A stretch of DNA of 64,000 bases from Microbacterium soli (lineage in GTDB: Bacteria; Actinomycetota; Actinomycetes; Actinomycetales; Microbacteriaceae): assembly GCF_039539005.1 (NCBI RefSeq), contig NZ_BAABCP010000001.1, forward strand, positions 1 through 64,000. Direction: 5' to 3'. Under the pieces are notes generated by a model, which saw only the letters and a program-made list of their open reading frames with translations, made no database searches and had not been told where the DNA came from. Both the position numbers and the translations under genes were made by a program. Position 1 is the stretch's first letter; the number at the start of each line of letters is the position of its first letter. This document shows positions 28,528 through 32,272 of this stretch, piece by piece.

Positions 28528-29511
28528 TCACCGCGCCGTGCGCTTGTCTCTCGAAGCGGCGATGATGCTCGCGACGCTCGCCACGATCATCGATCCGAAG
28601 ATCACCGCCAGCGACAGCCCGTTGCTGATCTCCGGGGCCCACCCGATCGGCTCCCCGCCGTTGATGAACGACAGCTCGTTGACGTGCATGGCGTGCAGCA
28701 CGAGCTTGACCCCGATGAAGGCCAGGATGAAGGCCACACCGTAGTGCAGGTACTTCAGGCGCTCGAGCAGGTCTCCCAGCAGGAAGTACAGCTGACGCAG
28801 ACCCATGAGCGCGAACAGGTTCGCGGTGAAGACGATGTACGGGTTCGTCGTGATGCCGAAGATGGCGGGGATCGAGTCGACGGCGAACATCAGATCGGTC
28901 ACACCGAGCGAGACGAAGACGATCAGCATGGGCGTCCACATCTTCCTGCCGTCCACGACCGTGCGCACTCTCGGCCCGTCGTACGCGTCGCTGATGGGCA
29001 CCACACGACGGATCTGGCGCACGATGAAGTTCTCGGTCCGCGCGTCCTCGTCATCCTTCTCGGGCAGGGTCTGCCGCACTGCGGTGAACAGCAGGAACGC
29101 TCCGAACACGTAGAACAGCGGACTGAGGTGCTCGATCGCTGCACCGACGATGATGATGAACACCGCTCGCAGCACCAGCGCGATGATGATGCCCACCATC
29201 AGCGCTTCCTGCTGGTAACGGCGTGGCACCTGGAACTGCGTCATGATCAGGATGAACACGAACAGGTTGTCGATCGACAGGCTGTACTCGGTCGCCCAGC
29301 CTGCGATGAAGTCGACGGAGGTGCCGGATCCTGCCACGAAGAACAGGACCCCCGCGAACAGCAGTGCCAGCGACACGTAGAAGACCACCCACAGGGCAGA
29401 CTCCTTCGTGCTGGGCACGTGTGGTCGCTTGAGGATCAGCAGCAGATCGCCGAGAAGGATCCCGGTCAGGACGACCAGGGAGACGATCTCGAACCAGACG
29501 GGAACAGCCAC
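28528..29511 (-). CDS. TerC-family integral membrane protein (Alx/MntP-like metal exporter)
   Basis: A 327-residue membrane protein with about nine spans. Conserved acidic intramembrane motifs are SLSIDNLFVFILIM and FAVDSIPAIFGITTNPYIV, and the PLFYVFGAFLLFTA and LGDLLERLKYLHYGVAFIL segments are typical of TerC/Alx. Family members have been linked to tellurite resistance, pH response and Mn2+ export. I chose the GTG at 29511 with GAAAGGA upstream; earlier starts lie in a structured leader. That leader matches the Mn2+-sensing yybP-ykoY riboswitch, which strongly suggests manganese export. Confidence 0.9.
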   Translation of the reverse strand: MAVPVWFEIVSLVVLTGILLGDLLLILKRPHVPSTKESALWVVFYVSLALLFAGVLFFVAGSGTSVDFIAGWATEYSLSIDNLFVFILIMTQFQVPRRYQQEALMVGIIIALVLRAVFIIIVGAAIEHLSPLFYVFGAFLLFTAVRQTLPEKDDEDARTENFIVRQIRRVVPISDAYDGPRVRTVVDGRKMWTPMLIVFVSLGVTDLMFAVDSIPAIFGITTNPYIVFTANLFALMGLRQLYFLLGDLLERLKYLHYGVAFILAFIGVKLVLHAMHVNELSFINGGEPIGWAPEISNGLSLAVIFGSMIVASVASIIAASRDKRTAR

Positions 29512-29521
29512 GTGAGGGGTC

Positions 29522-29642
29522 CTTTCGGAGACTGACGGAAGAACCGAAAGTCTCTCCCCGCGCCGAAGCGCGCCGCGGGACCGGAGCGACGATGACGACG
29601 CTCGTGATGACGATCCGCGCGATGACGGGATACTCCCTCTCG
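29522..29642 (-). ncRNA. yybP-ykoY-type (Mn2+) riboswitch with switching hairpin
   Basis: The aptamer reads on the reverse strand from 29642 to 29545. Stem P1 pairs CGAGAG (29637-29642) with CTTTCG (29545-29550). Directly inside P1 is GGAGTA, the invariant loop-1 sequence. Next comes TCGTCA, then a GAGCG/CGCTC stem and CGG, matching the loop-3 pattern. A GC-rich UUCG hairpin and GAGA precede the P1 3' strand. That strand, CTTTCGG (29544-29550), is also fully complementary to CCGAAAG (29522-29528) at the ribosome site, so P1 formation would open translation. Confidence 0.75.
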
Positions 29643-29773
29643 CACCGACGATGATAGCCGATGCCACCGGATCGGTCGCATCCGCCTAGAATCCGGGTCC
29701 CCGGCACGCCGATCTGAGACGATGAGGGCGCACGTGACACTTCCTGATCAGACAGACACGAACGGGACGGGTT

Positions 29774-30331
29774 ATGCCGACCAGCACACGGGATCGCGAG
29801 TGGGCCGCACGGGCGGCGTCCGGAGATGAGGCGGCCTTCCGCCAGATCTATCGCGCCCATGTCAGGCCGGTGTACTGGATCGCCCACGGCATCCTCGGTT
29901 CGGCGCAGGATGCGGAGGACATCACCCAGGAGACCTTCGTCGTGGCGTGGCGGAAGCTGCCGGGGCTGGAGCTGACCGGAGAGTCGCTGCTGCCCTGGCT
30001 GGCGACGATCTGCCGCTTCCAGGCGGCGAATCGGCTTCGGGTGCTGCGTCGCGATCGCGCGAACACGGCGGATGCCGTGGATGAGCGACTGCCCGACACG
30101 GTGAGCGTGGAGGATCAGGTGATCTCCGCGGAGCTGGCCGACCGCATCGCGCGGGAGGTCGGCCAGCTGGGTGAGGTCGACCGTCGCATCCTCATCCTGT
30201 GCGCCGTGCAGGGGTACGGCTACCAGGTCGCGGCCGACGAGGTCGGGCTCAGCCATGGGGCCGTCCGCAACCGTCTGTCGCGAGTACGCACGCGCCTGCG
30301 CGGCGCGAGCGAGGAGATGAGGGAGGCATGA
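29774..30331 (+). CDS. RNA polymerase sigma factor, ECF (sigma-70 family)
   Basis: A 185-residue ECF sigma factor. Region 2 reads FRQIYRAHVRPVYWIAHGIL then DAEDITQETFVVAWRK, the -10 recognition helix. Region 4 has LGEVDRRILILCAVQGYGYQ and a helix-turn-helix ending VRNRLSRVRTRLRG. The ATG at 29774 is chosen; no strong ribosome site is seen. Its stop overlaps the start of a DUF4349 membrane protein (ATGA), which may take the place of an anti-sigma partner. The target promoters are unknown. Confidence 0.9.
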   Translation: MPTSTRDREWAARAASGDEAAFRQIYRAHVRPVYWIAHGILGSAQDAEDITQETFVVAWRKLPGLELTGESLLPWLATICRFQAANRLRVLRRDRANTADAVDERLPDTVSVEDQVISAELADRIAREVGQLGEVDRRILILCAVQGYGYQVAADEVGLSHGAVRNRLSRVRTRLRGASEEMREA

Positions 30332-31670: not shown

Positions 31671-31676
31671 CGTCGG

Positions 31677-31749
31677 TGACCCCAGCGGGATTCGAACCCG
31701 CGTTACCGCCGTGAGAGGGCGGCGTACTAGGCCGCTATACGATGGGGCC
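31677..31749 (-). tRNA. tRNA-Glu (anticodon CTC)
   Basis: A 73-base tRNA from G at 31749 to the discriminator A at 31677. Acceptor GGCCCCA pairs with TGGGGTC, the anticodon stem-loop is GCCGC-CCTCTCA-CGGCGG with CTC, and the T arm is GCGGGTTCGAATCCCGC. The 3' CCA is not encoded. It is identical in sequence to the copy at 32056-32128. Confidence 0.95.
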
Positions 31750-31799
31750 GTCGCTGCAACCGTTCAAGTATGCCATGCTGCCCCGAGGCGAACAAATCG

Positions 31800-32047: not shown

Positions 32048-32055
32048 TGTCACTG

Positions 32056-32128
32056 TGACCCCAGCGGGATTCGAACCCGCGTTACCGCCGTGAGAGGGCG
32101 GCGTACTAGGCCGCTATACGATGGGGCC
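32056..32128 (-). tRNA. tRNA-Glu (anticodon CTC), second copy
   Basis: Identical to the copy at 31677-31749: acceptor GGCCCCA/TGGGGTC, CTC anticodon, T arm GCGGGTTCGAATCCCGC, no encoded CCA. Two copies about 380 bases apart suggest local duplication; the intervening DNA contains a gene remnant. Each copy has its own terminator. Confidence 0.95.
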
Positions 32129-32272
32129 GTCCGTCCTGCGAAGGACTATCGGCAACCCCGCAAGTCTTTCATGAGCATTCCCCGGAGCCAAATCACGACG
32201 GCCTCGGCGATGACGCGGGCGTGTCGCCGTCGCGGTTGCCGCTCGGCGCGGTCCTGCGGTTGACTCGGATGC

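Follow-up and report, generated by a model that had tools for sequence, protein, structure and literature searches.

A very probable yybP-ykoY riboswitch for Mn2+ in the leader of a terC gene of Microbacterium soli

Main finding

In Microbacterium soli, the 5′ leader of the terC gene very probably contains a yybP-ykoY riboswitch that senses Mn2+. Its membership of this class is supported by homology to the alx leader of Escherichia coli, by conserved metal-site letters, by covariation and by the position before metal-exporter genes, all read from sequences. The present Rfam library misses the actinobacterial branch of this riboswitch in the genomes sampled.

Parts of the locus

The window is the whole stretch analysed (64,000 nucleotides). 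Coordinates are those of the window, and the basis of each feature is given in brackets. SD, Shine-Dalgarno sequence. R1, covariance model built from 40 leaders including that of the window, but none from E. coli or from the Comamonadaceae loci L032 and L037.

29651..29656, minus strand: -10-like hexamer TATCAT (sequence).
29542..29646, minus strand: Mn2+-class (yybP-ykoY) aptamer, whole model R1 (86.9 bits, E 4.9e-21; own sequence among the 40 of R1).
29637..29642, minus strand: P1.1 5′ strand CGAGAG, partner CTTTCG 29550-29545 (sequence, 40-leader alignment).
29631..29636, minus strand: L1 5′ part GGAGTA, directly inside P1 (sequence, R1 matches).
29627..29630, minus strand: P1.2 5′ strand TCCC, partner GGGA 29558-29555 (alignments).
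29611..29620, minus strand: P3.1 5′ strand GCGCGGATCG, C29617 bulged (R1, predicted fold).
29604..29610, minus strand: L3 UCAUCAC (alignment, R1 matches).
29584..29603, minus strand: P3.2 hairpin, GAGCG (29603-29599) with CGCTC (29588-29584) (alignment, R1).
29575..29583, minus strand: CGG (29583-29581) and the remaining P3.1 3′ strand (R1).
29559..29572, minus strand: P4 hairpin CGCGC-TTCG-GCGCG (R1, predicted fold).
29555..29558, minus strand: P1.2 3′ strand GGGA (alignments).
29551..29554, minus strand: L1 3′ part GAGA, just before the P1 3′ strand (sequence, R1 matches).
29545..29550, minus strand: P1.1 3′ strand CTTTCG (sequence, alignment).
29522..29528, minus strand: CCGAAAG, complementary to the P1.1 3′ strand and one further G, overlapping the SD (sequence).
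29520..29526, minus strand: SD GAAAGGA (sequence).
29509..29520, minus strand: ACCCCTCACGTG, expected to pair with the region of the P1.1 5′ strand when no ligand is bound, including the first two start-codon bases (prediction).
28528..29511, minus strand: TerC-family membrane protein, 327 aa, GTG start at 29511, stop included (PF03741, E 2.6e-48).

The R1 match is the sole one in its own genome at E<=1. A sequence-only reading of this DNA had listed P1 (CGAGAG/CTTTCG), GGAGTA, TCGTCA, GAGCG/CGCTC, CGG and GAGA, and all of them are present on the minus strand where it had placed them. TCGTCA (29613-29608) runs into L3, TCATCAC (29610-29604). Judged by alignment, A29608 in L3 corresponds to A41 of Lactococcus lactis, the adenosine that contacts Mn (PMC6754395). 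A P2 hairpin and a four-way junction are absent from the leader of the window, which has just 6 nt at that position; the P2 hairpin is not universal in the class and is thus not taken as defining. The alx leader also aligns without P2, and Agromyces leaders appear by eye to have it.

The mRNA is expected to start near 29645, as suggested by the hexamer TATCAT. By eye, several relatives have TAGCAT- or TAGACT-like hexamers at a similar distance. A simple sigma-70 scan and a terminator scan of the region found nothing. A plus-strand ORF (29774-30331) that reads by eye like an ECF-type sigma factor is divergent from terC, with 262 bases between them. A tRNA-Glu(CTC) gene is found in two identical 77-base copies (31676-31752 and 32055-32131), 379 bases apart.

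Leaders of related terC genes

The comparison includes 110 TerC loci: the 80 top-scoring ones out of 288 in named genomes, and 30 drawn from the 191 genomes of the family in which a match was seen. The leader is present in 85 of the 110, the window's own copy being counted. Because the words GGGAGTA and GAGAGAC served to select the leaders, both are invariant by construction; neither TCCC nor GTCA was a requirement. Of the 85 leaders, which comprise 84 distinct sequences, 40 were used for R1 and 83 for the linker tests (72 of those 83 for the SD count). The P1.2 strand TCCC is identical in 85/85 leaders. L3 is CGTCANNAC in 84 leaders, the remaining one having GGTCAGTAC, and GTCA is found in all 85 of these leaders, whose loci were picked by protein.

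In the 40-leader alignment (A1; P1.1, P1.2, P3.1, P3.2 and P4), 88.5% of cells are paired, versus 75.2% after shuffling and no more than 48.2% after sliding of the partners, the structure being favoured over its slid versions because it was drawn from the same alignment. Cells changed on both sides number 178, versus a shuffled mean of 61.8. P3.1 (91.2% of cells paired) and P3.2 (90.6%) each have six pairs changing on both sides. P4 is a weak helix (66.4%). P1.2 has no compensated variation in A1 and is compensated in A2, an alignment fitted to the model, where its first pair is UA in 56 of 95 rows, GC in 22, CG in 11, AU in one and other in five; read from their own sequences, alx has A-U and mntP G-C at this pair. 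As judged from these sequence comparisons, the leader and its pairing exceed chance.

The 25 TerC loci without the picking words (L006, L008-L010, L013-L015, L017-L021, L023-L029, L031, L033, L051, L068, L100 and L107) were not matched by R1 at E<=0.01; L025 came closest (0.013). By title, 23 of them belong to Microbacterium or Microbacteriaceae, six being titled M. testaceum. In those inspected, a GATAAACT/GATAGACT-like -10 is often close to the gene and the ribosome site GAAAGG is kept. Just upstream of the TerC match of L009 and L068 (near 1950-2000) there is no aptamer, yet a pair of segments, CTTTCGG and TTCGAAAGG, resembling the switch region is still present.

Reach of R1 and genes downstream

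R1 recognises the alx leader of E. coli over its whole span, with 47.6 bits and an E value of 2.3e-10. In the taxonomic class of the Comamonadaceae genome that carries L032, it matches only 3 of 185 genomes, that genome included; as searched, R1 is thus largely an actinobacterial model. UCA-type leaders before TerC-like genes were seen outside Actinobacteria at L032 and L037 (Comamonadaceae) and at L232 and L234 (taxonomic class of L032); L232 has a small zinc-ribbon-like ORF between the leader and the TerC-like ORF, these genes being named by eye.

Downstream genes were named by a three-frame search for 99 R1 matches from 100 chosen loci (the 30 best of the class search, 60 regions taken partly for second copies, ten loci found with the Rfam model RF00080, and alx). 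The own copy (L132) is left out of the 99; setting aside alx and four repeats leaves 94 distinct places. The next gene is TerC in 69 cases, GDT1/UPF0016 in 23, Na/Ca exchanger-like in two (one place seen twice), PGPGW in one and none of these in four, so that a TerC or GDT1 gene follows 92 of the 99. GDT1, Na_Ca_ex and PGPGW were each confirmed in a single case with Pfam, which also identifies two of the four unclassified genes, as an Na_Ca_ex protein (L162) and a GreA/GreB-like protein (L206). The matches L189, L194, L206 (GreA/GreB-like) and L207 (PGPGW protein) precede neither TerC nor GDT1. GDT1 genes have been reported to be largely under a yybP-ykoY riboswitch (328/333 strains; PMC7380456). 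In the genome of M. soli, no GDT1 gene was found at E<=1e-10.

L1 GGAGUA is identical in 98 of the 99 matches, and the Mn-contact adenosine of L3 is kept in 99/99. This adenosine contacts Mn in crystal structures, and the role of A41/A48 has been described (PMC6754395). These letters bear on a highly unlikely alternative, a variant yybP-ykoY fold that controls TerC in response to pH or to a divalent metal other than Mn2+. Variants of the class are expected by a review (PMC7266159), alx also responds to alkaline pH (PMC9603457), and the L3 of the window differs from the Xanthomonas/mntP form; against another metal, the contact adenosine is universally kept in these matches, L3 UCANNAC is the form of the Mn-responsive alx, and the downstream gene families are linked to Mn in the publications cited here.

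Two forms of L3

L3 is UCA-type in 68/68 distinct TerC places and ACA-type in 20/20 GDT1 places (Fisher p 3e-20, a value inflated by shared ancestry). The split holds in 15/15 fetched genomes with both leader kinds. Among 30 GDT1 loci (the top scorers from 74 matching genomes, at least five being already among the 94 places), 21 have an R1 leader, and 21/21 read CGACA, several of these places having been counted before. E. coli fits the split: UCAUUAC in alx (TerC family), ACAUACU in mntP.

The L3 forms themselves are known, since both were noted in L. lactis and Xanthomonas oryzae (PMC6754395). A partial literature search, with the founding papers outside it, found no publication tying them to gene families. 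From the split, it may be proposed that Actinobacteria carry two old, separately inherited Mn riboswitch forms per cell, the UCA-type controlling TerC and the ACA-type controlling GDT1-type exporters, maybe tuned to different Mn levels or signals, with current Rfam passing its cut-off on neither in the genomes sampled. Taken as a whole, this proposal is speculative and on balance improbable. The UCA-type switch of L. lactis presumably precedes a P-type ATPase gene, in which case the rule linking L3 to gene family would not be universal. If true, the tuning might, for example, set metalation or slow export against emergency efflux. The split by exporter family is in itself a natural experiment on one metal sensor tuned to two tasks.

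Sensitivity of the Rfam model

The sequence-only reading had proposed a covariance-model match of RF00080 at 29545-29642 as its check. This check failed: RF00080 (Rfam 15) has no match in the window at the gathering score, nor in a 451-base region at E<=10. Thirteen related loci likewise yielded nothing with this model at E<=1. In a control scan of E. coli, the alx leader was not found at E<=0.1, and mntP reached 41.6 bits versus a cut-off of 45. Reporters of both alx and mntP are turned on by Mn (PMC9603457). Since these Mn-responsive leaders also fail, the missing match reflects the model more than the sequence and, as alx is missed, does not exclude membership of the class. RF00080 was therefore rejected as a deciding test, being insensitive. 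Weak Rfam matches of the region to MIR8032 and raiA-hairpin are far below their cut-offs and were rejected.

Of the genomes of 19 relatives, 14 had RF00080 matches at E<=10, and the cut-off was passed in none. The best of these matches is at a different place with an mntP-like core: L112, 1505-1614 (Arthrobacter sp. B1805 genome), a second, mntP-like element (RF00080 23.4 bits, R1 32.2 bits). Among control genomes, 2/14 pass the cut-off; that of Corynebacterium glutamicum has a match at E<=10 which is absent at E<=0.01 under stricter filters. Stricter Infernal filters were used for the class searches, the E limits being 0.001 for R1 and 0.01 for RF00080. Under these settings, RF00080 matched 11 of 296 sampled genomes of the taxonomic class at E<=0.01, and R1 matched 177 at E<=0.001. 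Annotation by the Rfam cut-off thus finds 0 such leaders in 296 genomes, 177 of which have one or more according to R1. R1 also finds 9 of 10 fetched sub-threshold loci of RF00080; both models therefore see the same family.

Identity of the element

A yybP-ykoY aptamer of the Mn2+ class before TerC, as the sequence-only reading had proposed, is upheld by other evidence than RF00080: homology of the leader to an experimentally Mn-responsive member (R1 against alx), a P1.1 that closes L1 GGAGUA/GAGA, a 7-nt L3 with the invariant Mn-contact adenosine (UCAUCAC, A29608), paired P1.2, P3.1 and P3.2 with covariation (that of P1.2 from A2), and the association with Mn exporters, the leader preceding a Mn homeostasis gene (TerC). 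In Vibrio parahaemolyticus, terC and mneA lie behind a yybP-ykoY riboswitch and are Mn-induced (PMC13274385).

It is extremely unlikely that the leader, riboswitch-like by descent or chance, acts otherwise, as a leader peptide, a protein-binding RNA or through transcription attenuation. The lack of an Rfam match in the leader and of a clear gating of the SD in the folding would fit such a route; the covariation, the homology to alx, the same core in GDT1 leaders and the scan that found no terminator-like site argue against it.

How it would switch

Control of terC by Mn2+ is likely of the ON type, by analogy with alx and mntP. Mn2+ stabilises P1.1 in this class (PMC6754395). At high Mn2+, L1 and L3 would come together on the ion, which would stabilise the switch helix, P1.1. 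At low Mn2+, P1.1 would open and its strands would instead pair with parts of the leader close to the SD and the start codon, reducing translation. As the P1.1 strands freed without Mn2+ would pair there, Mn2+ would turn terC ON, and TerC would then remove Mn or pass it to exported enzymes. Export of Mn by this TerC, as the sequence-only reading had supposed, is plausible by analogy. The TerC proteins of Bacillus subtilis have been described as having minor efflux activity only, with a role in metalating exported enzymes (PMC10550928).

Either P1.1 strand is a candidate for masking the start. The predicted best ligand-free fold keeps P1.2, P3 and P4 and replaces P1.1. The P1.1 5′ strand region pairs there with ACCCCUCACGUG, which includes the first two start-codon bases, and GAGACU, which spans the end of L1 and the first letters of the P1.1 3′ strand, pairs with the AGUCUC that follows shortly after it. 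The fold with P1.1 lies 8.6 kcal/mol above this best fold. When P1.1 is forced, the SD is more open in 34/72 leaders (mean unpaired 0.43 free, 0.37 forced); in the window, it is less open (0.64 to 0.23). This folding test of SD opening is weak, because the same program gives P1.1 of alx zero probability too. With the SD opened in 34/72 only and the alx control behaving alike, minimum-energy folding was rejected as a proof of the ON switch.

Each P1.1 strand was compared with its own linker in 83 leaders, against permuted partners. For the 5′ strand, permuted partners were as good in 0/2000 cases (28/2000 within groups). Within Microbacterium it beats permuted partners (1 and 0/2000 as good); it is no better than permuted in Agromyces (644/2000), Arthrobacter (643/2000) and the mixed remainder (1603/2000). 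For the 3′ strand, the score is -8.24 versus -7.69 permuted, with 2/2000 as good (6/2000 within groups). It is no better than permuted within Microbacterium (321 and 291/2000) and in the mixed remainder (331/2000), and borderline in Arthrobacter (50 and 57/2000) and Agromyces (69 and 71/2000).

The 'visible ON-switch' of the sequence-only reading stands in part. It had drawn the P1 3′ strand CUUUCGG as pairing with CCGAAAG at the SD, and this complementarity is real: 29550-29544 and 29528-29522 form a perfect 7-bp complement (-9.9 kcal/mol). That exactly this pairing forms at low Mn2+ within the Mn switch is possible, though we would not expect it. The perfect complement, the slight advantage of matched 3′ strand partners over the 83 leaders and the borderline values in Arthrobacter and Agromyces speak for it. 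With this pairing imposed, the energy is 4.3 kcal/mol higher than in the best fold, and the pairing is unevenly conserved: the 3′ strand match is not significant within Microbacterium, and in Arthrobacter this strand is mostly not paired with the SD, many leaders pairing weakly and others with GGCGTA upstream of the SD. GAAAGG, moreover, remains the SD in Microbacterium relatives without the aptamer. ON control itself, with either P1.1 strand as the candidate mask, is kept here as the likely reading.

Comparison with known systems

The closest system is the alx leader of E. coli. Like the leader of the window, it has no P2 hairpin, has GGGAGUA, CGG and GAGAC, and precedes a TerC-family gene; its L3 is UCAUUAC, versus UCAUCAC in the window. 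It differs by the first pair of P1.2 (A-U, versus U-A in the window), a longer P4 region, a lower GC content and a different linker. The mntP leader of E. coli and the RF00080 consensus share L1 GGGGAGUAGC and the general core with the window, but have the ACAUACU form of L3 and a P1.2 starting with G-C. The RF00080 consensus has a P2 hairpin, unlike the window, and mntP belongs to another gene family than TerC. In C. glutamicum, the leader of cg2157 (terC) resembles that of the window in being an RF00080-class element before terC, a likeness drawn from the published prediction only: an older Rfam gave RF00080 at 49.13 bits, with an observed transcript start, in 2013 (PMC3890552, Table 2). Since an RF00080 element before terC had been predicted there, the element of the window joins an already known kind, and it is ordinary for its class.
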